A stretch of DNA of 23,727 bases from positions 1-23,727 of the IMG/VR virus record IMGVR_UViG_3300000116_000230; one strand, written 5' to 3'. The notes under the pieces are model-generated. The model was given only the letters and a program-made list of their open reading frames with translations, searched no databases and was not told the DNA's origin. The position numbers were made by a program, and so were the translations under genes. Origin of the DNA: a virus. Shown here piece by piece: positions 41 to 21,426 of the stretch (position 1 is its first letter; the number at the start of each line of letters is the position of its first letter).

Positions 41-135
41 TTTGATTCCTCCATCTTTTTCTCCCCTTCACATAATTTACAATGGTGCTTTCCTTCAAAT
101 TGAGGATTGTGTTTTAATGGTTTTTTGCATTTCAT
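37..135 (-). CDS. 32-aa cysteine/histidine-rich mini-protein
   Basis: A short ORF of 32 codons begins MKCKKPLKHN and contains a later HHCKLC segment, so it may bind a metal ion as a single zinc knuckle. Its ATG is 8 nt downstream of an AAGGAG ribosome site that lies inside the third copy of the KAKEM seam repeat. Its TGA overlaps the ATG of the next gene, which supports translation. Function is unknown. It may belong to the material inserted into or behind the polB locus. Confidence 0.45.
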   Translation of the reverse strand: MKCKKPLKHNPQFEGKHHCKLCEGEKKMEESK

Positions 136-1121
136 ACTTTCATCTCCTTTGCTTTATTATAATAATGATTCTTTTTCATATTTTCTGTGTCTTTAAGTGG
201 TTGTAAGTTTTCTAAAGCCCAACACTTCTTGAAGTCTTCATCCTCCATAGATGTAAAATTAAAGGAGGCTACGGGCTTAATGTGGTCTATATGCCAAAGA
301 CCGTGATTATCCCAATTCATCCAATCATCAAATTGGTTTTCTAAATGGATTCTTAACTCATCCATAGTATAATCAATGTGGATAAAATACTCGCTTGTTT
401 GTATTCTCCCATGAAGGGCTTTCCGAATAGCATTTTGAAAACGAGAGTTAATTATATTCTTTGGTTGGTTTTTCCAATTATTGAATCTACATTTAGGGCT
501 ACACCACCGCCTCGTTGAAAGGGGTATGGTTGTTTCAAACACACTTTCGCATTCTTCACAAACTTTCTGTAAAACAGGTTTAATTTTATTAGCGGTTTTT
601 TCTCGTGCTAATCTATTTCTTCTTTCTGCTATGTCGGGTCTTTTACTATACGCTGATGCTTTATCCTTTTTACCGTTTATATTATTTTGATAGCGGTGTT
701 TTTGTTTTTGGTTATTTCTTTCCTTAACTTCAGGTCTTCGGCAGTATTCATATTCCCATTCTTTTCTTTTAGGGTCGTTCTTTTTCTTTTCATCACTCTT
801 TCGTGAAGACTCAAGACTTTTTTCGGGGTTTGCCTTTCTCCATTTTTTAGTTGATTTATTAGATGCAATCATTTTACATTCTTTAGAACAATACTTGATT
901 CGTGCATTCATTAAATGAGAAGAAGTAACTTCATCTGCACTGATATTGTTTAGTTCTAAAAGAACATCAAACTTAGTCATTTCTTTTTCGCAAATCTTAC
1001 AATTTATGGTAGAATGCCAGCCTATAATGTGTTTATTTAATTGGTGATTATCCTTACAGGAATAAGAACAATGTTCGCATTCTTTCATCTCCTTTGCTTT
1101 AAATGCGGCTAATCTAATCAT
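132..1121 (-). CDS. HNH homing-type endonuclease inserted behind truncated polB
   Basis: The 329-aa protein ends in a phage-type HNH nuclease module at residues about 276-319: WHIDHIKPVASF supplies the catalytic His/Asp-His, followed by CWALENLQPL and a lysine-rich NMKKNH end. The N-terminal half has several Cys/His clusters that look like DNA-binding zinc fingers: CEHC with a following H-x4-H near residues 15-36, CKIC near 41-44, YCSKEC, CEEC and WCSPKC. The start ATG overlaps the stop of the upstream membrane-protein gene and has GGAG 10 nt ahead. Residues 2-12 (IRLAAFKAKEM) are identical to a peptide near the end of the PolB fragment, and the protein ends NKAKEMKV, which repeats it again. 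Seen: motifs and repeats. Inferred: a homing nuclease that targets or targeted the polB site. Confidence 0.85.
   Translation of the reverse strand: MIRLAAFKAKEMKECEHCSYSCKDNHQLNKHIIGWHSTINCKICEKEMTKFDVLLELNNISADEVTSSHLMNARIKYCSKECKMIASNKSTKKWRKANPEKSLESSRKSDEKKKNDPKRKEWEYEYCRRPEVKERNNQKQKHRYQNNINGKKDKASAYSKRPDIAERRNRLAREKTANKIKPVLQKVCEECESVFETTIPLSTRRWCSPKCRFNNWKNQPKNIINSRFQNAIRKALHGRIQTSEYFIHIDYTMDELRIHLENQFDDWMNWDNHGLWHIDHIKPVASFNFTSMEDEDFKKCWALENLQPLKDTENMKKNHYYNKAKEMKV
137..155 (-). repeat. Seam repeat copy C (end of the HNH gene)
   Basis: Nineteen bases identical to part of copy B close the HNH gene (coding KAKEMK) and supply the ribosome site of the 32-aa ORF. Copies B and C therefore bracket the HNH gene as direct repeats. 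Confidence 0.9.
1082..1118 (-). repeat. Seam repeat copy B (recoded polB segment)
   Basis: The copy encodes IRLAAFKAKEM directly after the ATG of the HNH gene (1118-1086). It matches copy A in the polB end at 28 of 33 bases, and all five differences are synonymous. Its 3' 19 bases (1100-1082, AAAGCAAAGGAGATGAAAG) are identical to copy C. Confidence 0.9.
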
Positions 1122-1548
1122 AGTTTCTCAACTCCTTCGGCAGACTCCAACTGATTGTGTTTTCTTGTTTTCTTTTGTAGTCGTAATAATCTAACTTGTT
1201 TATGTTATATAATCTCAAGTCTGCTAATGTTGCTTCAACAAAACATTCCCACACCCAAGAAGTAAAGACCCTTGTGAGCCTAAATTTTCTTTTAACAAAC
1301 AAAAATAATACTATATCAATAGGTATAGTATATACATAAATTATAGATAAACAAGGCGTTATTGCTAAAAGAATAAGATAAAGAGAATATACTATCAAGA
1401 AAAACGGAAATGAAATTACATTGTAAATCCTTTCACCTAATGTTGATTTCCGTTTCTTTCTTTGAAAAAGAGAATGCTCGCCTTCGGGAATAAACCATTC
1501 ATGAAAGTAATTCTCACGCATACACTTACGAATATATTTCTTCATCAT
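1114..1548 (-). CDS. Small membrane protein between polB and HNH gene
   Basis: The 144-aa protein has a basic N-terminus (MMKKYIRKCMREN), then a long hydrophobic stretch at about residues 45-85 that reads as two transmembrane helices (FPFFLIVYSLYLILLAI, then a segment ending DIVLFLFV). A basic, aromatic C-terminal tail follows. No known family is recognised. The ATGATG start overlaps the TGA of the polB fragment, and its ribosome site AAGGAG lies within the polB coding end. It lies between seam copies A and B, so it looks like cargo of the first insertion at this site. A membrane protein is otherwise out of place in a replication operon. Confidence 0.65.
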   Translation of the reverse strand: MMKKYIRKCMRENYFHEWFIPEGEHSLFQRKKRKSTLGERIYNVISFPFFLIVYSLYLILLAITPCLSIIYVYTIPIDIVLFLFVKRKFRLTRVFTSWVWECFVEATLADLRLYNINKLDYYDYKRKQENTISWSLPKELRNYD

Positions 1549-3284
1549 ACTTCCATCTCCTTAGCCTTGAATGCCGCTAGTCTAATCGCCTCTCTCGCAC
1601 TAGCAGTAATACTAGCCGCTAAATCTACATCAGCCCAACCGAACCCCTTGTAAGCGAGGATTCCGTAGAAGGATGCCATGAGTCTTTTGACCGCCATTTG
1701 ATTATTATTCCACTTAGCGGTTTGCTCTTTATCTCCACTGTTTCTAGCCTCTTTCATATTAGCCTTGTATTCGTTTCTCAAGTCTTTCAACACCAACAGA
1801 GACTTGGGCAACAGTCCTAATTCTTCTGTAGTGTAATAGAGCATCTTTCTTTCATACTCTTCTTCTCTCAAGTTTTGAGGTGTGTTTAAATCAGCACCAA
1901 ATACTGTTTCAACATCACTCTTTGTTTCAAATGAAATATTCCTAGCAATAATCATACTAGGATAAAGACCTGCAAAATCAAACGCCGCTACATTGTAATG
2001 TAATCCGTTTGTTCCTTCATCTAATGGATTGTAAATCATAGCACCCGAATAAGAAAGACCCGCTTTGCACTTCTTACATGTCTTTAGTTTCTTATCATTA
2101 GGGTTTTTGTAGCCGCATGAATCACACACTTTATGTTTAGGCTTACTACCTGTTGGTGCTTTCCACCAAGCATTACGCATAAAATACATTGAACCCATAT
2201 TAGATGCAAAGAAACAAGCGTCGAATGGTGCTACTAGTAATCGCTGTAGAGATAGAATTGCCTCGGAGGTAAAGTTCTCTTCATCAATCCTTCTAAGTAA
2301 TTCTACATCTATAATTGCATACTGTAGATATGCCGAAGCGTCTTCTATCCATGCTCTACGGTAGAACTCATTCGGGTCTTCAAACTTAGTCTCGGTATGT
2401 TTTCCTTCACCGAACAGAGTCTTTGAAACATAGTCTAGTGATAGACTAGGTAGTGTTCCTCTTTGAGCATCATTCCATTGTCTTTCAAATGCCAAGTCTA
2501 GATTGAGAGTAATTCTACCTTTTATTGGTTGAGCCGTTGGGCTGTAGCCGTCTCCTTTAGTAAATACCCAAGATTCATTTTTTAGATAAACCCCATCAAC
2601 AACACCTAATGGTGACATCCCTAATGGGTTGATGTCTAATGCACAACACCGTTCTAGTAATTTAGGCAAATCGAACTTAAGACCAAACCATGCAATTAAC
2701 ATATCGGGGTCGCAGTGTTCCATAGAGATTAAGAATTGTCGAATCATTTCTTCTTCACTATCTTCGATAAAGAAAATAGAATCGTAGCCTTCTACTTTAG
2801 GTTCTACTATCTCTTTATTTTCTTCGGGTTGCCAAGTCCAAGTATAGAATTGACTATCAAAATTATCATAGCAAACAATAGCAGTAATTTTGTTATCATG
2901 TTCTCCACCTTGTTGCCACTCCATATCCCAATACCATTTACGCATATTGTATTCCGGTATTGACTCCAATTCATCTATAGCATAGCGATAGTGAAAAGGA
3001 ACATCGGCTTCATAGGTTTGGGAAAAGTTTTCTTTTGCTTTGTAGATGTCTTTAGGCATATCCACATAGACTTTCTTTAACTGTTCACCATCTAGATTAA
3101 CCCAATCACCATGCTCATATTCATAGTCTCTAGTAATTGTTTTGCTTACCTTGTAAGTAGCAGGTTCTCTAGCAGTCTCTTTAATATAAAAATAAGGCTT
3201 GTAAGTATCATTCTTAATCACTTTGTTTCCGTCTTCGTCTCTCCATGAGAGGTAAATATTATTATTATCATTTGTTATTATCAT
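1545..3284 (-). CDS. polB: Family-B DNA polymerase, N-terminal part lacking motif C
   Basis: Replicative family-B polymerase. Exonuclease motifs are visible: Exo I WDMEW (Asp120/Glu122), Exo II KFDLP (Asp205) and Exo III YAIID (Asp326). The polymerase domain has motif A DFAGLYPSMI (Asp436) and motif B KRLMASFYG (533-541), where the usual Asn of NSxYG is Ala. A four-cysteine zinc ribbon (Cys387, 390, 403, 406) sits just before motif A. The frame stops at residue 579 after IRLAAFKAKEMEV, before the catalytic YGDTDS motif C and thumb, so this piece alone cannot polymerise. The size resembles the large subunit of the naturally split PolB of Methanothermobacter, which also lacks motif C. The ATG at 3284 is preferred over a GTG at 3293 that overlaps the PCNA stop. 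The missing half is not in this window. Confidence 0.93.
   Translation of the reverse strand: MIITNDNNNIYLSWRDEDGNKVIKNDTYKPYFYIKETAREPATYKVSKTITRDYEYEHGDWVNLDGEQLKKVYVDMPKDIYKAKENFSQTYEADVPFHYRYAIDELESIPEYNMRKWYWDMEWQQGGEHDNKITAIVCYDNFDSQFYTWTWQPEENKEIVEPKVEGYDSIFFIEDSEEEMIRQFLISMEHCDPDMLIAWFGLKFDLPKLLERCCALDINPLGMSPLGVVDGVYLKNESWVFTKGDGYSPTAQPIKGRITLNLDLAFERQWNDAQRGTLPSLSLDYVSKTLFGEGKHTETKFEDPNEFYRRAWIEDASAYLQYAIIDVELLRRIDEENFTSEAILSLQRLLVAPFDACFFASNMGSMYFMRNAWWKAPTGSKPKHKVCDSCGYKNPNDKKLKTCKKCKAGLSYSGAMIYNPLDEGTNGLHYNVAAFDFAGLYPSMIIARNISFETKSDVETVFGADLNTPQNLREEEYERKMLYYTTEELGLLPKSLLVLKDLRNEYKANMKEARNSGDKEQTAKWNNNQMAVKRLMASFYGILAYKGFGWADVDLAASITASAREAIRLAAFKAKEMEV
1555..1587 (-). repeat. Seam repeat copy A (end of the polB fragment)
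   Basis: This is the genuine polymerase sequence coding IRLAAFKAKEM just before the premature end of PolB. The AAGGAG in it doubles as the ribosome site for the next gene, whose ATG lies 8 nt downstream. Confidence 0.9.
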
Positions 3285-3292
3285 TGTATTCA

Positions 3293-4084
3293 CTATTCCA
3301 TATGAGGAACCTTAACTAGTAGTCGGTCTTCTCCAACTAGTAGTAGAGGGAACTCGTCTTTAACATAGAAGGTAATTGTATCTCCTTTGAAGAACTTATG
3401 AAGTGGGCCTGTAAAAGCCACCGTTGCTGAATCACCTTTTCCATTTTCTACACTTACTGTAGTAGTATATGCTTTAACCCCAACTACCTTTGAAGAGATT
3501 TCAACTTCTCCCAAATCTTCTACATTCCAATCTAATTTATAGACGCCTGTTCCTATCAATTCACATTGGTTAATTACTTCTTTAAAATCAGCAGTAGCCA
3601 TGTCAAAAGAACCCTCAAATGCTTTGCCGTTAAATTGAGGCATTTTACCATCTAAGTTCAAGTCCATCAAATATAGTCTTTGAATAACTTCGTGGTGGGG
3701 ATGTTGATTAACTCTAGGCAAAGTAATTTCAGTATTACTACCATCACCGAGAGAAGAAATAATTACTCTATCATGGATTGCTATTTCTATTTCACCCGAC
3801 ATTTTCTTCAAGAAAGGCAGTAGTGTTTTGATGTTCACTGTTGCATTATGCGTGGAGTCGTCTAGTATAGTTACATCAAGAACTATTTTGTTGATGTAAC
3901 TTCCGTCACCATTCCATAATGCCAATAGTCCAAACGCAGTGTTGTTAGGATTGTCTTTCAAATCTAAGTAAGTGTATTCACTTAATACTCCCGACTTCAC
4001 TCCACCACTTTGAGCGTATTTACCACTGCCCATTATGTCTTCTAATCCTGTTCTAAACTCTTTTGCATCTACTGTAAATTTCAT
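3293..4084 (-). CDS. pcn: PCNA sliding clamp
   Basis: The 263-aa protein has the length and layout of an archaeal PCNA. It opens MKFTVDAKEFRTGLEDI (first clamp helix), has a mid-protein linker region and second-domain segments such as FEGSFDMATADFKEVI, and ends FKGDTITFYVKDEFPLLL...RLLVKVPHME like the last strands of clamp domain 2. It would ring the DNA and tether polymerase, RFC and ligase. The start at 4084 is preferred over an upstream in-frame ATG because it overlaps the previous stop (ATGA) and has a GAGGGG ribosome site. The gene sits between the RecA-like ATPase and polB, as expected for a replication operon. Confidence 0.9.
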   Translation of the reverse strand: MKFTVDAKEFRTGLEDIMGSGKYAQSGGVKSGVLSEYTYLDLKDNPNNTAFGLLALWNGDGSYINKIVLDVTILDDSTHNATVNIKTLLPFLKKMSGEIEIAIHDRVIISSLGDGSNTEITLPRVNQHPHHEVIQRLYLMDLNLDGKMPQFNGKAFEGSFDMATADFKEVINQCELIGTGVYKLDWNVEDLGEVEISSKVVGVKAYTTTVSVENGKGDSATVAFTGPLHKFFKGDTITFYVKDEFPLLLVGEDRLLVKVPHME

Positions 4085-14619: not shown

Positions 14620-15168
14620 TTATTCTTCCTCCCCTGCTTTCATCTGTATTCTATAATTACCATCCTTTTGCTTAATCTCTAATTGCTTAGGTTTAGTATT
14701 CTCCCAAAAACCGTAGTGGTCGTCACCGCCAATAACATAAGCGGTTTTCATTACAGGTTCCCAAATAGCAACAGTAGTCCAATCAGTGCCACTAAAGTAT
14801 GCTGAACCAAATGGATGAGTATGAAACCAACACTTGATAGGTAATTTCATCTTCTTTGGTTCTACTTTGAAACTTACATATCCCGATGAACCGGATGAAA
14901 TGTGCGCTCTGTTATTAGCATCAATTACTACTTGAACTTCAAGGCATGGTAACATTTCAGTAGAGGCTTTCCATATTGCATCTTGTAGTGCTTTAGTGTG
15001 TATTGCGTCGTCTCCCCATTCTTGATGTAGATTAACCCAAACTCCCTGTAAGAAAGGAATTATTTCACTTCTAGCACTAGCAATTGTTTCTTGGTATTCC
15101 CAATACTCTTCTGCTTCTCTAATACCTTTTTCTTCTTCTCTAGCAAACCATTCTCCGCTTTTACCCAT
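14620..15168 (-). CDS. JAMM/MPN-domain metalloprotease
   Basis: The 182-aa protein has the zinc-site motif H-x-H-x10-D: HTHP with His116 and His118, Ser126 and Asp129 (FSGTDW). A candidate catalytic Glu sits upstream in CLEVQVVID. Such JAB/JAMM proteins cleave ubiquitin-like tags (archaeal desampylases) or process Ubl precursors, and also occur in phage tail proteins. With an E1-like enzyme about 1 kb upstream and a Ubl ending GG plus two residues in the same array, Ubl processing or removal is the favoured role by inference. The ATG abuts the previous stop (TAAATG). Confidence 0.8.
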   Translation of the reverse strand: MGKSGEWFAREEEKGIREAEEYWEYQETIASARSEIIPFLQGVWVNLHQEWGDDAIHTKALQDAIWKASTEMLPCLEVQVVIDANNRAHISSGSSGYVSFKVEPKKMKLPIKCWFHTHPFGSAYFSGTDWTTVAIWEPVMKTAYVIGGDDHYGFWENTKPKQLEIKQKDGNYRIQMKAGEEE

Positions 15169-15387
15169 TTAAGCCACCATCCCATCTTCTGCATTCATAG
15201 CGATTTTAAATTCCCATGCGTGAAATGATTCATGTCCTGCAATAAATCCACCGGCTTGTCTAATTGGGCCAATGAACCTAGCACTGCAAATACCACAAAA
15301 CACTTCTACAATTCTTTCATCATAGTAAGAGCCGCTATCGTCATCATAATCTATTTTATTCCCTAAGTTTTTTTCTGTATATTTCAT
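15169..15387 (-). CDS. 72-aa zinc-finger-like protein
   Basis: The protein contains EVFCGICSARFIGPIRQAGGFIAGHESFHAWEF, a C-x2-C and H-x3-H spacing close to a C2H2 finger with a long loop. An acidic, tyrosine-rich N-terminus precedes it. The start is ATG after a GGAGGAATATAAATG site. It is directly upstream of the JAMM gene and could be an adaptor or DNA-binding protein. Not otherwise recognised. Confidence 0.6.
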   Translation of the reverse strand: MKYTEKNLGNKIDYDDDSGSYYDERIVEVFCGICSARFIGPIRQAGGFIAGHESFHAWEFKIAMNAEDGMVA

Positions 15388-15981
15388 TTATATTCCTCCA
15401 AATGGTTTTCTATTTTTTATCATATTGTATCTGTGGTTTTCGGGCCACCAGTCCGGTTCTTTTCTTTTACTCCAAAAGGCAAAATCCCATTTACCTCTTA
15501 AGTAATAATGTTGGTAAGACCTTATTACAAAATCCCAACAATGTTTTTCTTTTGGTAATCTATACATGTCATCCATAGCAATAGATACAGGGGTCAAGTC
15601 ATCTTCTTCATAAGAAAAAGTAAAACTATCTCCAATTCTTTTTTCTGTTCCATGAACTTTACCGTATCTAAATGTATATTCTTTACAAAGAGCCATAGCA
15701 TGATTGTATAGCCACATGTAATTTGTTTTAGTTTGTCTAGCCCAAATAGTGCTAGGATGATTAAGCATAGCAGGTTTCATCAAGTAGTTGAAGTGCGACT
15801 CTTTATGAAACTCTTTCAGTTCTCTCAAAGAAGGCTCTCTACCATGAGATTCCCAAAACAAAAAGTAGAGACAATTAGTGTGTAGCATTTGACAACTTTC
15901 AGTTGGCATTTTGACTACATGTTTGTCTAGCATTTGTTGGGCTGATTCTACGGGGTCTTTTGATAGTGCAAATATATTCAT
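15388..15981 (-). CDS. Conserved virus protein with DKHVVKM motif
   Basis: The 197-aa protein begins MNIFALSKDPVESAQQMLDKHVVKMPTESCQML and later has NHPSTIWARQTKTNYMWLYNHAMALCKEYTFRYGK, LTPVSIAMDDMYRLP and YYLRGKWDFAFWSKRKEPDWW. I recognise this pattern from proteins common in marine phages, especially T4-like cyanophages, where they are usually hypothetical. No verified activity is known to me; conserved His, Lys and Trp suggest an enzyme. Start ATG overlaps the previous stop (ATGA). Its presence links this archaeal virus to a gene pool shared with bacterial phages. Confidence 0.7.
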   Translation of the reverse strand: MNIFALSKDPVESAQQMLDKHVVKMPTESCQMLHTNCLYFLFWESHGREPSLRELKEFHKESHFNYLMKPAMLNHPSTIWARQTKTNYMWLYNHAMALCKEYTFRYGKVHGTEKRIGDSFTFSYEEDDLTPVSIAMDDMYRLPKEKHCWDFVIRSYQHYYLRGKWDFAFWSKRKEPDWWPENHRYNMIKNRKPFGGI

Positions 15982-16157
15982 TCCTCTTCATCCTCTACTT
16001 CATCTTCATCGGGGTTTAGTATTTCAATATCATAGACAACATAATCACATGCCCTTTCATCATCAATAGACCATGCCTTTGCCTCTGCGTCTTGTTCATC
16101 GTCAGCATCATACCTAAATGTCAATTCAATTGTTTTCTTTACTTCGTATTCCTTCAT
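15978..16157 (-). CDS. 59-aa acidic hypothetical protein
   Basis: A short ORF begins MKEYEVKKTIELTFRYDADD, continues with SIDDERACDYVVYDIEILNP and ends in a run of acidic residues (DEDEVEDEEE). ATGA overlaps at both ends with the E1-like gene and the DKHVVKM gene support it. The strand pattern at the start could fit a small beta fold, but it has no terminal Gly-Gly, so it is not itself a ubiquitin-like tag candidate. Function unknown. Confidence 0.65.
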   Translation of the reverse strand: MKEYEVKKTIELTFRYDADDEQDAEAKAWSIDDERACDYVVYDIEILNPDEDEVEDEEE

Positions 16158-16732
16158 ACATTCACTACCATAAAGTCATTAACTGATTCACCATTAAACC
16201 AACGCTGAATCCATTCAGCCGCCATACCTGCAATTGCTATGTGCATGAAATGTAGTCCTTTACTAGAACCATCCCAAGAATCTCCTTGACAACTAAAAGA
16301 ACCATCCGGCCCTGCCAACATAGTGTCATACATTGATGGGTCAGCCTTGTATGAAATAAAGGCCGCATTACGCCCTTGAGAGCGAAGGTCTAGCCATTTA
16401 ACCTGTGAGCGATACAAGAGCCTTCTAGCGTCTAAATTATCTACACAACATACTACCAAATCATATCCTTTCAACTGTGTTTCAGTCAATATTGGATATG
16501 GGTTTGCACCATTTACTTGACTGTGTTTTTTCATACAGTGAACTTTCTTTTTACCTATGTCTTCTTTCTTGAAGTCTTGGTAAGTCAAATTCTTTTCTTC
16601 TACAGTGTCGGGGTCGGAGACATTTATGCTATACAATCCTTCTTTAGTTCCATCTCCAACAACACTTTCAAGAATACGAATCAAATGACTCCCTATTCCT
16701 CCTGCGCCTATAATCAATATGTTTCTATCCAT
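16154..16732 (-). CDS. E1/ThiF/MoeB-like Ubl-activating enzyme
   Basis: The 192-aa protein has the Rossmann nucleotide site NILIIGAGGIGS (GAGGIG 9-14), the D-x-D pair VSDPDTVEEKNLTYQ (Asp40, Asp42, Asn48), Lys61 in IGKKKV and the VVCCVDNLDARR segment with Asp98, all in E1 order. The usual NLxRQ arginine is Tyr51, and the paired CxxC zinc site of MoeB is absent; a single Cys148 in GSFSCQGD is a candidate thioester residue. It would adenylate the C-terminal Gly of a ubiquitin/MoaD-like protein. The start has GAGGAATAG ahead and overlaps the TFB end by 19 nt. Confidence 0.87.
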   Translation of the reverse strand: MDRNILIIGAGGIGSHLIRILESVVGDGTKEGLYSINVSDPDTVEEKNLTYQDFKKEDIGKKKVHCMKKHSQVNGANPYPILTETQLKGYDLVVCCVDNLDARRLLYRSQVKWLDLRSQGRNAAFISYKADPSMYDTMLAGPDGSFSCQGDSWDGSSKGLHFMHIAIAGMAAEWIQRWFNGESVNDFMVVNV

Positions 16733-17562
16733 TCTATTCCTCTCCCTTCTATTTCTTCTTTATTTGTATTTTTTATTTTTAGTAGTCTTTTGGTTTCATC
16801 GTAAATTGCTCTTGTCGTGAAACCTGTGTGTTCGGAAATAACCTTTTGAGTTATTCCCATGTTTTCCAATAACGAAACAATCCAACAGAATGCTACAGGC
16901 GACGATGGCCGTAAGTTATCTCCTGTTAATTTTACTAAGTTATCATAGTGGTTTGCTACTCGACCAACCTTTGAAACATATGTTTGGTTGCTAAGGCCCA
17001 CTGCGTATTTCTCTGCGAAAGGACTACTATCTCTCATTAGAAATACTGATGTATTGTTTAATTCATTTGCTATCTTCTTAGCGAGTTTGAATACTCTTCT
17101 CTCGACGCAATCATATTCCTTACACACTTCTTTCAAAGTGAAAGGCAGGTTTGCTTCTTTGAGAATATAATATACTACTGCCGCCGCCCTATCTTCTAGA
17201 ATAGTTGTAGTGAAGACATGCTTTCGATACAGCGACCTGTAAAGTTGGTCTACTCTATCCGATAAAGATTTGGCACTGTTTAGTGTCGAAAGCAAAACCT
17301 TACACATTGTAATTCCTGTGTGTATCGCTCTATCACTTCTACCCCACTGCCTCATACCTTTGACAAGTGTTGGGTTGTTTTTCCAAGCCTCTCTAATTCT
17401 TTCACCATTAGCGTCATAGGCATAGGAGGTTTGTTCAAAAGGCTCGGTTACTAAAACCAAACCACATTCATTACAAACCAATTCTCCTAGCCTAGTATCT
17501 AAACTAAAGTCATTGGATTGACATTCCAAGCATTTCATCGTATTTGTATTGTTTCTGTTCAT
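16714..17562 (-). CDS. tfb: Archaeal transcription factor B (TFB/TFIIB)
   Basis: The 282-aa protein starts with the TFIIB zinc ribbon CLECQSNDFSLDTRLGELVCNECG, then a B-finger-like segment (AYDANGERIREAW) and two cyclin-like repeats (from about residue 90 and from about 195: SPVAFCWIVSLLENMGITQKVISEHTGFTTRAIYDETKRL with the second-repeat helix-turn-helix). TFB bridges TBP-DNA and RNA polymerase, so a viral copy could redirect the host polymerase. AAAGGAG lies 10 nt before the chosen ATG. Overlaps the E2-like gene by 53 nt. Confidence 0.93.
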   Translation of the reverse strand: MNRNNTNTMKCLECQSNDFSLDTRLGELVCNECGLVLVTEPFEQTSYAYDANGERIREAWKNNPTLVKGMRQWGRSDRAIHTGITMCKVLLSTLNSAKSLSDRVDQLYRSLYRKHVFTTTILEDRAAAVVYYILKEANLPFTLKEVCKEYDCVERRVFKLAKKIANELNNTSVFLMRDSSPFAEKYAVGLSNQTYVSKVGRVANHYDNLVKLTGDNLRPSSPVAFCWIVSLLENMGITQKVISEHTGFTTRAIYDETKRLLKIKNTNKEEIEGRGIEWIETY

Positions 17563-18877
17563 TTGTAAAACACTCCTTTAGTGGTATTCTTATTCTATCC
17601 TTTTGATTTATCATGTAGTCGCCTATGGTATTAACTCTTAACGATACCGAAGAGTCATTCATTAGTGAAAATATTCTAGATGCGAATTGGTCGCCCAATG
17701 ATGGGTTTTTCCCACCTGTGTTAATACATATGGGGCCATTCCAATTAGTTACTTTATATTCGTCATCTTCTCCTTGATTTTCAATTTGTGTCATTAAACA
17801 ATGAGTGTGAACTCTTTGAGGGTTGTTTTGACTACCATAACTGTAGACACTTTCTACCAAAAGCCAATCTGTTTTTTGACCCTTGACTAAGACTTTCATA
17901 GGTGTTCTTAATACTCCTTTATTGTCTCTTTGACCTTTTTCGCATTCTACCGAAGGAATAACTAAAATCCTATCTTTGAATTGTATAGCCATATCTTCAA
18001 TCAATTCTTTGGCTCTCTTCTCAACAATATCTTGGGTTCTATTTTGTTGAAGAAAAGCAATCATTACTTTTAATTGAGATTCCATTGGGACTTTACCCAT
18101 GATTCTAGAATAGAGTTTTGAAGGACTTAAGAACTTCCAACTACCTCTGTTATGCTCATGCAAATAATGACCTAGATATGTAGTTAAATCACTTTCTTTT
18201 ATTTCGCCCCATTTGCCATCGGATATTTCAAGAGCGTAATTTGATGTTCCTATTTGTTTAAGATTTAATCGAACATTTTCTTTTTTTCCCGTGGTGAAAA
18301 AGTAGAAGGGAACTCTATTTTCCAAACAATAAAGGATGTCTTCGGGAGTTTTCATTATTCTCCGTATTGCTTTCTTTGTTTCGGATTTATGTTCTTCACT
18401 TTCGTGTCTATTAAATATATTACCATAGGCTTGAATAATTCTACTCAACTTAAATGATAATTCTTTCAAGGACATTTTAATTCCGTTAATGGCGTATGGT
18501 TTTTCTATCCATAGTTCATTACCTCCAATGACTAAAACAACTTCAGTATTGAGGTTTTCTTGATTAAAATAAGTCTGCAATCTTTTAGAAATTACTTTTG
18601 CTAAATTAGATGTGATAGCATCGGCACTGCCTATACTCCCATCCATAATGCTAATTCTATTAGAGCGACCTCCTAGTAATTCGTTTCTCGCATAATGAGG
18701 ATAGCGATAAACATTTAATTCATCCCAAATATGGTCTTCTTCTGTGCTTATCCAATCTTCTCCATCGTGCATGTATTTTGGCATGATAACTTTATTATCA
18801 TCTACATCAAAAAAGAATCCGTTAATTTGTATTTCTTCTCGCCCTTGTCCTGTTCTATTTATTACAATTTTATTCAT
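17510..18877 (-). CDS. Large protein with E2-like cysteine segment (candidate Ubl-conjugating)
   Basis: The 455-aa protein is not matched with certainty to any family. Near the C-terminus, VHTHCLMTQIENQGEDDEYKV is followed by NWNGPICINTGG (Cys384) and SLGDQFASRIFSLM. That resembles the prokaryotic E2 arrangement in PRTRC-type cassettes, where a strand and a W/HPN-like turn precede the active Cys in a GxxC-x-G/S context, followed by a helix. The first 300 residues include strand/helix segments of unknown fold (GGRSNRISIMDGS; LVIGGNELWIE). It lies between the Ubl/51-aa genes and TFB-E1. The E2 role is a hypothesis from motif and neighbours. The ATG at 18877 is used; a GTG at 18886 is an alternative. 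Confidence 0.55.
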   Translation of the reverse strand: MNKIVINRTGQGREEIQINGFFFDVDDNKVIMPKYMHDGEDWISTEEDHIWDELNVYRYPHYARNELLGGRSNRISIMDGSIGSADAITSNLAKVISKRLQTYFNQENLNTEVVLVIGGNELWIEKPYAINGIKMSLKELSFKLSRIIQAYGNIFNRHESEEHKSETKKAIRRIMKTPEDILYCLENRVPFYFFTTGKKENVRLNLKQIGTSNYALEISDGKWGEIKESDLTTYLGHYLHEHNRGSWKFLSPSKLYSRIMGKVPMESQLKVMIAFLQQNRTQDIVEKRAKELIEDMAIQFKDRILVIPSVECEKGQRDNKGVLRTPMKVLVKGQKTDWLLVESVYSYGSQNNPQRVHTHCLMTQIENQGEDDEYKVTNWNGPICINTGGKNPSLGDQFASRIFSLMNDSSVSLRVNTIGDYMINQKDRIRIPLKECFTNEQKQYKYDEMLGMSIQ

Positions 18878-18882
18878 TTTAT

Positions 18883-19038
18883 TCACATCATGTATTGTTT
18901 TGATTTGTATTTTTTAACACATATTTCATGTGCTTCTATTTTAAATTCCTGTGGTGTTGTTAATTGCCCTCCACATATTCGGCATCGAGTTGCTATTGGT
19001 TTTCCTCTTGTATTAGGAACATATTCGGGATTATTCAT
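18883..19038 (-). CDS. 51-aa zinc-knuckle protein
   Basis: A short ORF, MNNPEYVPNTRGKPIATRC, continues RICGGQL and then HEICVKKYK, giving C-x2-C and H-x2-C ligands for one zinc ion. Its ATG overlaps the end of the 92-aa gene, and its stop overlaps the region before the E2-like start. Probably a nucleic-acid or protein-binding knuckle. No family name can be assigned. Confidence 0.6.
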   Translation of the reverse strand: MNNPEYVPNTRGKPIATRCRICGGQLTTPQEFKIEAHEICVKKYKSKQYMM

Positions 19039-19309
19039 CGTCGTTCACCTTTTTGTATTCAATAAGTATTTTCAATTCATTCACCCTGTTAATTAGATAC
19101 TCTACAAAGCCTGTATCTACTGCTACGGGAATATCCCATAATTCCTTTTTTACGGAATGTGTTAATGCAAAGCGTTTATCGGCATCATCTTCTAGATGCT
19201 CGCAATATTTGATAGTGTCTTCTATACGCTTTTGGCCCTCTTCCGAGAAGTCTTTGAGCATAAGAGAGACGATTCCCTTACACTCATTAAAATCCCGAAA
19301 AAGGGCCAT
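19031..19309 (-). CDS. 92-aa helical hypothetical protein
   Basis: The protein MALFRDFNECKGIVSLMLKD is predicted helical throughout (GQKRIEDTIKYCEHLEDDAD; FVEYLINRVNELKILIEYKK) and highly charged. The ATG at 19309 is chosen for its AAGGTG site 6 nt upstream. It separates the Ubl gene from the 51-aa knuckle and E2-like genes. No motif identifies it. Confidence 0.6.
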   Translation of the reverse strand: MALFRDFNECKGIVSLMLKDFSEEGQKRIEDTIKYCEHLEDDADKRFALTHSVKKELWDIPVAVDTGFVEYLINRVNELKILIEYKKVNDDE

Positions 19310-19348
19310 AGAATACACCTTGAGATAATCTTAGGACTATCAAGAAAC

Positions 19349-19555
19349 TTAGTAGTTTCCTCCAACAATTGCGGGAGTCAATGTTACATCAGCAACTTCA
19401 TCCCAGTTAATCTCATTTACTTCGCTTCGACTTACCATCTCGCCATCAACGAAAAGCCAATGGGTCGGGTGTTGGTCTATCTGTTCAATAACTTCGGATG
19501 AAGCCATCTCTAATTGCGTGTGTCCTGTCTCGTTTAAAATTCGTAGTGTTACCAT
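19349..19555 (-). CDS. Ubiquitin/MoaD-like beta-grasp protein (Ubl) ending GG-NY
   Basis: The 68-aa protein has the beta-grasp outline: strands VTLRILNETG and HTQLEMA, helix SEVIEQIDQ, strands HWLFVDGEMVSR, and a last strand ADVTLTPAIVGG. The Thr-x-x-Pro-Ala-x-x-Gly-Gly ending recalls MoaD (PPVAGG) and ThiS, where an E1 activates the final Gly. Two residues (Asn-Tyr) follow Gly65-Gly66, so the tail would need trimming before activation, plausibly by the JAMM protease of the same array. The ATG at 19555 is preferred because AAAGGTG sits 7 nt upstream. Alternative role: a tail-assembly beta-grasp protein like lambda gpI. Confidence 0.7.
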   Translation of the reverse strand: MVTLRILNETGHTQLEMASSEVIEQIDQHPTHWLFVDGEMVSRSEVNEINWDEVADVTLTPAIVGGNY

Positions 19556-19579: not shown

Positions 19580-20671
19580 TCATGTCCTATGACTATTTAA
19601 GCCATCTGTTTTTATCTCGTTTATTGCGTTTGATGCTTGTCGCTTTGATAATGTTGTATCGCCTTCAAAGCCAAGTGCCTGTAAGTATTTTATTTGTTTT
19701 TCAGTAGCAGGAACCAAAAGGTTCTGTAAAGTTTCTAATTGATTATTGGATAGTGTCTTGAACTTAGAAAGTTGTTGTTTGATACTCGTGAAAAAGGTCT
19801 TTTCCCAATCACTCAAATAACTACTGCTAAACTTATTGAAGTTCTTCAAATCATAAAATTCAACCATATCGTTTATTGCATCTTCATCAGTCCGACGAAC
19901 CAATGTATTCTTGTTTGAGTTAATCAACTTGATTCTATCAGCAAATATTTGGTCTTCTTTCTGTAGACTTTCAATAAGAGGGGCTGACATTTCGTGAAAC
20001 TCGTCTAAATCATCAAGTAGTTTCTTGTTTGGATAACCATGCACTTCTTGTTGGTTTCTTCTGTTGTCGGGGTGATTCCATCTCCATACAATAGAAGCCA
20101 TGTTACCACCACTAGAACGCTTACGAATAACTGTTCTAGGTCTATACATCCCTAGTTGGTTATCCCAATAGGTTCCCTTCTCATTCACATTGATTCTCAA
20201 GTCCAATTCTCTAATGTCTTCAAATTTATCAATGAAATCGTCTCCTTGTTCTTCCCACCACTTTTCACATTTCATGGATTTAATTTTAACAGTTATCCAT
20301 TCTTCAATCATTTCATCAGTAATTTGGTCTTCTCTTAGACCTGTTCTGTTCTTGATTTCATTGAGAACAAGATAGGAGTTAATGTGGTCGCTACCGACAC
20401 ATTCTCTAGTCTTGGTTTCTTCATTAAGAATCTCAAAGTGATATACGATTTTATGACCGCATAGACATTTACCATATCCATTAGTAGAATTAGAAACCCA
20501 ATCGGGTGCTTGTCCTCTATCCATGTTCCACCAAATCTCTCCGGTAGCAGTCCACTCATACTTTGCTTCTTCATAGTTATCAGCAACGGAAAGTCGAACC
20601 ATCTCTTGTTTTAGTTTTCTATCCCATCGGCCTTCGCCTAATCCTCTCTTAAATTTTCTTTCTTCATTCAT
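19580..20671 (-). CDS. 363-aa protein with zinc-ribbon-like and ATEKQ domains
   Basis: The N-terminal third has GYGKCLCGHKIVYHFEILNEETKTRECVGSDHI, a Cys-x-Cys-x2-His ribbon-like unit seen in phage proteins of unknown function that read C-x-C-G-H...N-x-x-T...VGS. The C-terminus has ATEKQIKYLQALGFEGDTTLSKRQASNAINEI, a small domain common at the ends of phage and bacterial proteins and thought to be a binding module. The middle is helical and charged. Start ATG 20671 follows AAAGGTG. Neighbours are the helical 64-aa protein and Ubl gene. Function unknown. Confidence 0.65.
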   Translation of the reverse strand: MNEERKFKRGLGEGRWDRKLKQEMVRLSVADNYEEAKYEWTATGEIWWNMDRGQAPDWVSNSTNGYGKCLCGHKIVYHFEILNEETKTRECVGSDHINSYLVLNEIKNRTGLREDQITDEMIEEWITVKIKSMKCEKWWEEQGDDFIDKFEDIRELDLRINVNEKGTYWDNQLGMYRPRTVIRKRSSGGNMASIVWRWNHPDNRRNQQEVHGYPNKKLLDDLDEFHEMSAPLIESLQKEDQIFADRIKLINSNKNTLVRRTDEDAINDMVEFYDLKNFNKFSSSYLSDWEKTFFTSIKQQLSKFKTLSNNQLETLQNLLVPATEKQIKYLQALGFEGDTTLSKRQASNAINEIKTDGLNSHRT

Positions 20672-20858
20672 TGTATTCACCTTTTAAATGTTCTAGTTCT
20701 ATTTCTTTTAATCTAATTAGGATTTGTTTATCCGAATATCCTAGTTTTCGCAATAAATCCACATCACTTTCCAACACTAATAATTTGTATGGGTTTAGTC
20801 TACCAATGTCTTCTTTATTTGTTATCATTCTTTGAATTTCTTCGATTATTTCATTCAT
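20664..20858 (-). CDS. 64-aa helical hypothetical protein
   Basis: The short protein MNEIIEEIQRMITNKEDIG is followed by LVLESDVDLLRKLGYSDKQILIRLKEIELEHLK, a helix-turn-helix-like spacing (LLRKLGYSDKQILIRL) that could be a small DNA- or protein-binding fold. It overlaps the 363-aa gene start by 8 nt and has an AAGGTGA ribosome site. No family recognised. Confidence 0.6.
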   Translation of the reverse strand: MNEIIEEIQRMITNKEDIGRLNPYKLLVLESDVDLLRKLGYSDKQILIRLKEIELEHLKGEYNE

Positions 20859-21351: not shown

Positions 21352-21426
21352 TGGCGAACATAACAGGAGTCGAACCCGTATCACCGGCTTAGAAGGCCAG
21401 TATGCTATCCATTACACCATATGTTC
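21352..21426 (-). tRNA. trnR-UCU: tRNA-Arg (anticodon UCU), CCA encoded
   Basis: Full cloverleaf by hand: acceptor GAACATA/TATGTTC (7 perfect pairs), D-stem GTGT/GCAT with G-T pairs, loop containing TGG, anticodon stem CTGGC/GCCGG with loop CTTCTAA (anticodon TCT), T-arm ACGGG/CCTGT with TTCGACT, discriminator G, then encoded CCA. No intron. It reads AGA/AGG, codons that appear frequent for Arg in the neighbouring genes. The upstream 90-aa gene's last codons and stop lie inside the tRNA's 5' 15 nt. Confidence 0.95.

Follow-up and report, generated by a model that had tools for sequence, protein, structure and literature searches.

A conserved gene set for a putative ubiquitin-like pathway in magrovirus-like genomes

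We report that a 23,727-base virus record (IMG/VR record IMGVR_UViG_3300000116_000230, 36% guanine plus cytosine; "the window" below means this whole stretch) carries separate genes for a ubiquitin-like protein (Ubl), an E1/ThiF-like enzyme (E1), a JAMM metalloprotease (JAMM) and a 458-amino-acid protein with a conserved cysteine (p458), all on the minus strand. A first-pass annotation, made from the DNA letters, had proposed a virus-encoded Ubl pathway with these four genes on one strand; all four are found where it placed them, and for Ubl, E1 and JAMM the proposal is borne out by profile matches, by a structural model of Ubl and by the joint conservation of the genes in relatives. We propose, with a probability of about 0.68, that magroviruses encode their own pathway for Ubl activation and (de)conjugation as part of their core genes, perhaps one that runs without an E2. 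The magrovirus literature that we searched, which did not extend to supplementary tables, makes no mention of a Ubl pathway.

The four genes keep the same order across related viruses

Relatives were collected by a search with E1, which returned 24 loci, and by a scan with divergent E1 sequences, which gave 110 matching stretches; profile scans of IMG/VR gave 188 matching stretches for Ubl and 235 for E1, and the best 80 of each were taken. Of the resulting 134 distinct E1-bearing loci, 81 have flanks of at least 8 kb upstream and at least 4 kb downstream of the E1 gene. All 81 of these distinct loci carry Ubl, p458, E1 and JAMM in the identical order, and E1 likewise follows downstream in loci that were found through Ubl alone, except where the contig stops first. 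Whole records of 84-97 kb contain JAMM in 29 of 29 cases, p458 in 28 of 29 and Ubl in 27 of 28; in both exceptions the block extends past the end of the contig. The E1 gene overlaps the JAMM gene in 18 of 133 loci, and in 16 more the two are separated by no more than 100 bp. The joint conservation of the four genes counters the alternative that the annotation had set beforehand, that relatives keep only unlinked single genes.

All four proteins are under purifying selection: the median ratio of nonsynonymous to synonymous substitution rates (dN/dS) is 0.13 for Ubl, 0.16 for E1, 0.22 for JAMM and 0.16 for p458. Mean column identity is highest for Ubl (75%, 14 rows), followed by E1 (69%, 12 rows), JAMM (41%, 17 rows) and p458 (33%, 17 rows). 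Because the order is the same in 81 of 81 loci, dN/dS lies between 0.13 and 0.22, and the catalytic and terminal residues described below are invariant, we conclude that the array is not due to chance.

Among contigs of GTDB genomes, a pattern scan that reaches close relatives only, with no search aimed at Poseidoniales hosts, found the Ubl on just two contigs of one 'Altibacter' metagenome-assembled genome. Another contig of the same assembly bears an E1 like that of magroviruses, and so its Ubl-bearing contigs are most simply read as mis-binned virus. Given the reach of the scan, a more distant cellular source of the Ubl is possible.

Ubl is a predicted beta-grasp protein with a conserved Gly-Gly

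Read from its ATG, Ubl has 68 amino acids and ends in ...TPAIVGGNY, that is, in GG plus two residues as first annotated; a GTG 9 bases upstream would give 71 amino acids. An AlphaFold2 model built from 14 alignment rows has a mean predicted local distance difference test score (pLDDT) of 81.5, with a flexible or disordered GG tail. It places strands at residues 2-8 and 11-17, a helix at 19-28, strands at 33-36 and 39-42, a helix at 43-48 and a strand at 56-59. This beta-beta-alpha-beta-beta-(alpha)-beta order is that of a beta-grasp, and the model thus assigns Ubl a beta-grasp topology. By our reading, about 42 of the 50 best Foldseek neighbours in the PDB are of ubiquitin-like, ThiS, PB1, UBX, SUMO or ferredoxin-type beta-grasp folds, at weak scores. 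None of the 14 Ubls scanned matches a Pfam family, and comparison of the Ubl profile with PDB sequences gave no meaningful match; neither Pfam nor PHROGs recognises the family.

The Gly-Gly is kept in 101 of 101 distinct Ubls, and the tail that follows, from 0 to about 9 residues long, is free in sequence: 13 Ubls end at the GG itself, most have 1-2 further residues and a few have more. Such a constant GG with a variable tail is typical of Ubl precursors that undergo processing. As a separate observation, one sub-lineage (L160, L205, L210, L215) has long acidic tails past the GG, such as GGSCTIDDDDY, for which proteolytic maturation would be needed.

Invariant predicted catalytic residues of E1 and JAMM

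The annotated E1/ThiF enzyme scores above the Pfam cut-off for ThiF, and its profile matches in the PDB include MccB, Cap2, UBA5, UBA3, MoeB and ThiF, the last five at about 1e-6 to 1e-8. A profile alignment with the ThiF of PRTRC cassettes is nearly full-length (96% probability) and places C148 on the PRTRC ThiF cysteine. Across 98 sequences, the nucleotide-site residues G9, G11, G12, G14, D40, D42, N48, Q52, K63 and D98 are invariant, as is C148, which lies in an SCQ motif ahead of the final helix (98 of 98). The protein is minimal, with no N-terminal extension, few residues ahead of the first strand and no CXXC pairs. Its Pfam score and all motifs other than the arginines considered below mark it as E1/ThiF-like, a predicted enzyme.

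JAMM has the motif HTHPFGSAYFSGTD. Its zinc ligands and active-site Ser, Asp and Glu (E77, H116-x-H118, S126 and D129) are invariant in 100 of 100 sequences, and HxHP-x6-SxxD is found in 138 of 138. A profile search matches AMSH/Rpn11, and 15 of 17 relatives match Prok-JAB. The profile comparison suggested in the annotation thus recovers ThiF (above cut-off) and JAB (below it), with no Pfam match for Ubl or p458.

p458 is a candidate E2

The one segment that we could identify as the E2-like cysteine segment of the annotation, NWNGPICINTGG, is in p458, and its cysteine, C387, is invariant in 90 of 90 sequences. The AlphaFold2 model of p458 (mean pLDDT 76.7) has a helix at residues 284-302, strands at 331-335, 340-345, 359-370 and 376-386, C387, and a helix at 397-409. 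The cysteine would thus lie directly past the fourth strand of a four-strand meander with helices on both sides, the order seen in UBC domains. The E2-like label, which goes back to the cysteine motif, is unconfirmed: the invariant cysteine and this strand order would fit an E2, and neither a fold nor a profile match adds to them. Foldseek with the full model found no match, and no E2, in the PDB, and in BFVD only three viral proteins, presumably homologous, again with no E2; such a search may overlook a small domain because of the disordered N-terminus and the additional domain of the model. Pfam gave no match for 17 p458 members. Comparison by hhalign with Prok-E2_D and Cap2 was negative, as was the positive control of Prok-E2_D against Cap2, so this comparison has no power.

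The odds that p458 acts as an E2 are about even. It may equally well be a virus-specific replication or transcription protein whose cysteine is structural, merely syntenic with a pathway that is otherwise E2-less; the outcome of the PDB and BFVD searches would fit this, as would the position of TFB between p458 and E1. The cysteine context is W-x-G-(P)-x-C and the classical HPN motif is missing, which also points that way; bacterial E2s can likewise be without HPN. Against an unrelated protein stand the invariance of C387, its modelled position after strand 4 of a helix-flanked meander and the presence of p458 in 81 of 81 loci. An unrelated p458 is compatible with the pathway that we propose, as it concerns the fourth part only.

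A proposed pathway and its alternatives

The four genes are constantly found together in relatives, their catalytic and terminal residues do not vary and Ubl has a predicted beta-grasp topology; from these observations we infer a route of adenylation, thioester formation and conjugation. Ubl would be made with a short tail past its Gly-Gly, which JAMM would trim in the lineages that have one. E1 would adenylate the exposed Gly-Gly and then hold Ubl as a thioester on C148. Ubl would then be transferred onto lysines of its targets, either straight from E1 with no E2, as in SAMP/Urm1-type systems, or by way of C387 of p458, and JAMM would undo the linkage. SAMP-type conjugation runs without a dedicated E2. 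Host or viral transcription and replication proteins are plausible targets, a reasonable guess given where the set always sits, next to TFB and close to replication genes; TFB itself could be a target or a regulator of the set. The archaeal factor TBP2 is a known Ubl-modified protein (PMC4895103), which makes a transcription target thinkable and is no evidence for magroviruses.

Several points weigh against a conjugation pathway. E1 is without the N-terminal region that supplies an arginine finger, and the equivalent of MoeB R73 is Tyr in 123 of 134 sequences and never Arg; with both lacking, adenylation by E1 is not assured. R103, R117 and R121 are invariant and might substitute for them. The Foldseek scores for Ubl are weak (best E=0.089, template-modelling score at most 0.49), the JAMM score falls below the Pfam gathering cut-off, the E2 is unproven, with p458 matching no fold or profile, and the viral Ubl has no known substrate.

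The main rival is that Ubl is a sulfur carrier, activated by E1 to a C-terminal thiocarboxylate that passes sulfur to a tRNA or a cofactor, with JAMM serving only to mature Ubl. MoeB and ThiF, members of the E1 superfamily that do this, are among the E1 matches, ThiS is among the structural neighbours of Ubl, and there is a tRNA-Arg gene in the window. We nonetheless regard this reading as unlikely. JAMM always accompanies Ubl and E1, even in the loci of the 13 distinct Ubls that already end at GG, and JAB is absent from the thiamine and molybdopterin pathways (Iyer et al., PMC1779556). Moreover, the families ThiS/MoaD (PF02597), rhodanese and the PF01171 tRNA thiolases were not found in 24 whole virus records, while control genomes matched; no complete sulfur pathway is therefore visible in the virus. 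The constant JAMM and the missing sulfur families lead us to favour tagging over sulfur transfer, although sulfur-transfer partners could possibly be encoded by the host.

The genes could also serve counter-defence, with Ubl, E1 and JAMM acting as decoys or as an altered pathway that disrupts the host's SAMP/proteasome system or a Bil- or CBASS-like conjugation system. Antiviral defences are known to use Ubl-type conjugation (PMC10097602, PMC11153139), the viral E1 has a profile similar to that of Cap2 from type II CBASS, and the unusual active-site arginines of E1 would fit such a role. A decoy would not need all four genes, which are kept together in every sufficiently complete locus with their catalytic residues intact, and we consider this reading very improbable. 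A function in virion or tail assembly, as proposed for the lambdoid TAPI/TAPK proteins, has as its precedent the Ubl and JAB pair of phage tail operons (PMC1779556). It would be hard to reconcile with the presence of E1, with the lack of an NlpC/P60 domain among the window genes scanned, or with a viral Ubl that has nothing like the extra C-terminal domain that TAPI carries past its Ubl. Because the set is surrounded by genes for replication (PolB, RFC, ligase), transcription (TFB) and a chaperonin, we give tail assembly scarcely any credence.

A bolder form of the conjugation pathway is that an autonomous core Ubl-E1-E2-JAMM system, with a new Ubl and with p458 as a new E2 family, is present in all magroviruses and reprograms transcription or proteostasis in the archaeal host. 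We offer this tentatively, as the odds are somewhat against it. If it is true, a complete ubiquitin-like pathway would be a hallmark of a virus order. Prokaryotic Ubl conjugation has been described mainly in cellular metabolism and in antiviral defence; were an abundant group of marine archaeal viruses to carry a complete core set, such a pathway would be a standard viral tool. The set would also give a compact, minimal Ubl system for reconstitution and a way to ask what these viruses modify in their Poseidoniales hosts.

Comparison with known systems

Bacteria have operons that encode Ubl, E1, E2 and JAB proteins (PMC1779556), and archaea offer a precedent in SAMP with HvJAMM1 (PMC4443979, PMC4895103). 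The PRTRC cassette, which resembles type 6d of Iyer et al. 2006 (Ubl, JAB, E1 and E2-like), likewise has a separate Ubl of about 70 amino acids, a compact ThiF that aligns with the viral E1 over nearly its full length, cysteine included, and a conserved-cysteine protein nearby. In contrast, the bacterial Ubl ends in MGTKG in the loci examined and has no profile match to the viral Ubl, and p458 does not match Prok-E2_D in a comparison of little power. With neither Ubl nor p458 matching the PRTRC-type Ubl and Prok-E2_D profiles, we rejected membership of this group.

The SAMP/Urm1 systems (UbaA as E1, HvJAMM1, no E2) share the combination of an E1, a GG-ending beta-grasp protein and a JAMM in archaea (PMC4443979, PMC4895103). 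They differ in that the viral Ubl falls outside the ThiS/MoaD models, the viral E1 is minimal and without CXXC pairs, and the genes form a virus core cluster. Membership of Ubl in ThiS/MoaD was rejected, with no PF02597 match in the 24 records and no Pfam match for the 14 Ubls. Bil and type II CBASS (Cap2/Cap3) resemble the viral set in the Cap2-like E1 profile and a JAMM-type deconjugase; both are defence operons of bacteria whose E2s are fused or separate, whereas the magrovirus genes belong to the core of a virus, their Ubl stands alone and no E2 is recognised among them. Lambdoid TAPI/TAPK likewise brings together a phage Ubl and a JAB domain (PMC1779556), in contrast within a tail operon, with no E1 and with the Ubl fused to a further domain. 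The stand-alone 68-amino-acid Ubl and its replication and transcription neighbours set the magrovirus genes apart from this tail system.

A viral parallel in arrangement is the adjacent gp77 (JAB) and gp76 (ThiF) pair near replication genes in crAss-like phages, whose E1 is about 31% identical over about 115 residues and has a DPD...N...Q motif that is also without Arg. The crAss E1 differs in its N-terminal extension of about 160 amino acids, and no Ubl was identified beside the pair. Searches of p458 against the neighbours gp78 and gp75 gave no match, and no p458 homologue of the magrovirus type was found beside the pair. The crAss-like phages with JAB beside an N-terminally extended ThiF (L168, L169) may have their own, parallel Ubl pathway, in which the Ubl has escaped recognition.

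Gene neighbourhood and virus assignment

The genes of the set and those lying among them are listed in Table 1. TFB is interspersed as the annotation had described. The small protein p51 is encoded upstream of p458 in nearly all related loci; a role as an adaptor is possible, if speculative.

Table 1. Coordinates of the Ubl gene set and adjoining genes in the window
Feature	Position	Strand	Remarks
Ubl, 68 aa, ends AIVGG-NY	19349..19555	-	beta-grasp topology in AlphaFold2 model; GG kept in relatives
p95, small conserved protein adjoining Ubl	19031..19318	-	carried by most relatives; no family match
p51, small conserved CxxC...H...C protein	18883..19038	-	C, H, C pattern conserved in relatives
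p458, candidate E2-like/transfer protein, 458 aa	17510..18886	-	invariant C387; N-terminal domain without assignment
TFB homologue between E1 and p458	16714..17562	-	PF08271, 6e-9; same place in relatives
E1/ThiF-like, 192 aa, minimal	16154..16732	-	PF00899, E=8.9e-16, over cut-off
JAMM/MPN+ metalloprotease, 182 aa	14620..15168	-	Prok-JAB, E=2e-4, just under Pfam cut-off

The window also encodes PolB, an RFC-like clamp loader, an ATP-dependent DNA ligase and a chaperonin, which together with TFB make up the set given for the magroviruses of marine archaea (PMC10768690). The window genes agree with the description of Magrovirales, and the longest relatives, at 84-97 kb, compare with tailed-virus genomes of about 90-100 kb. 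From the window genes and the sizes of the relatives we class the fragment as magrovirus-like; the capsid genes lie beyond the window.

An open reading frame (ORF) between E1 and JAMM (15388-15981, minus strand) encodes a pyrimidine-dimer glycosylase homologue (PF03013), which in other relatives lies upstream of p366; considered as an E2 candidate, it was rejected on its match to the Pyr_excise family. The PolB ORF (1545-3293, minus strand) ends in a 42-nucleotide stretch that is repeated (83%) at 1078-1119, where the following ORF (132-1121, minus strand) begins. The latter looks HNH-like by eye, which suggests an endonuclease gene inserted into a split PolB; a split into PolB-NTD and PolB-CTD is known for Aoguangviridae (PMC10768690). 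The tRNA-Arg (TCT) gene lies inside the gene block at 21352-21426 (minus strand). Near Ubl in many relatives is p366 (19580-20680, minus strand), a protein with no convincing family match and a conserved motif of the type CxCGH ... GS-D/E-H that probably binds zinc.

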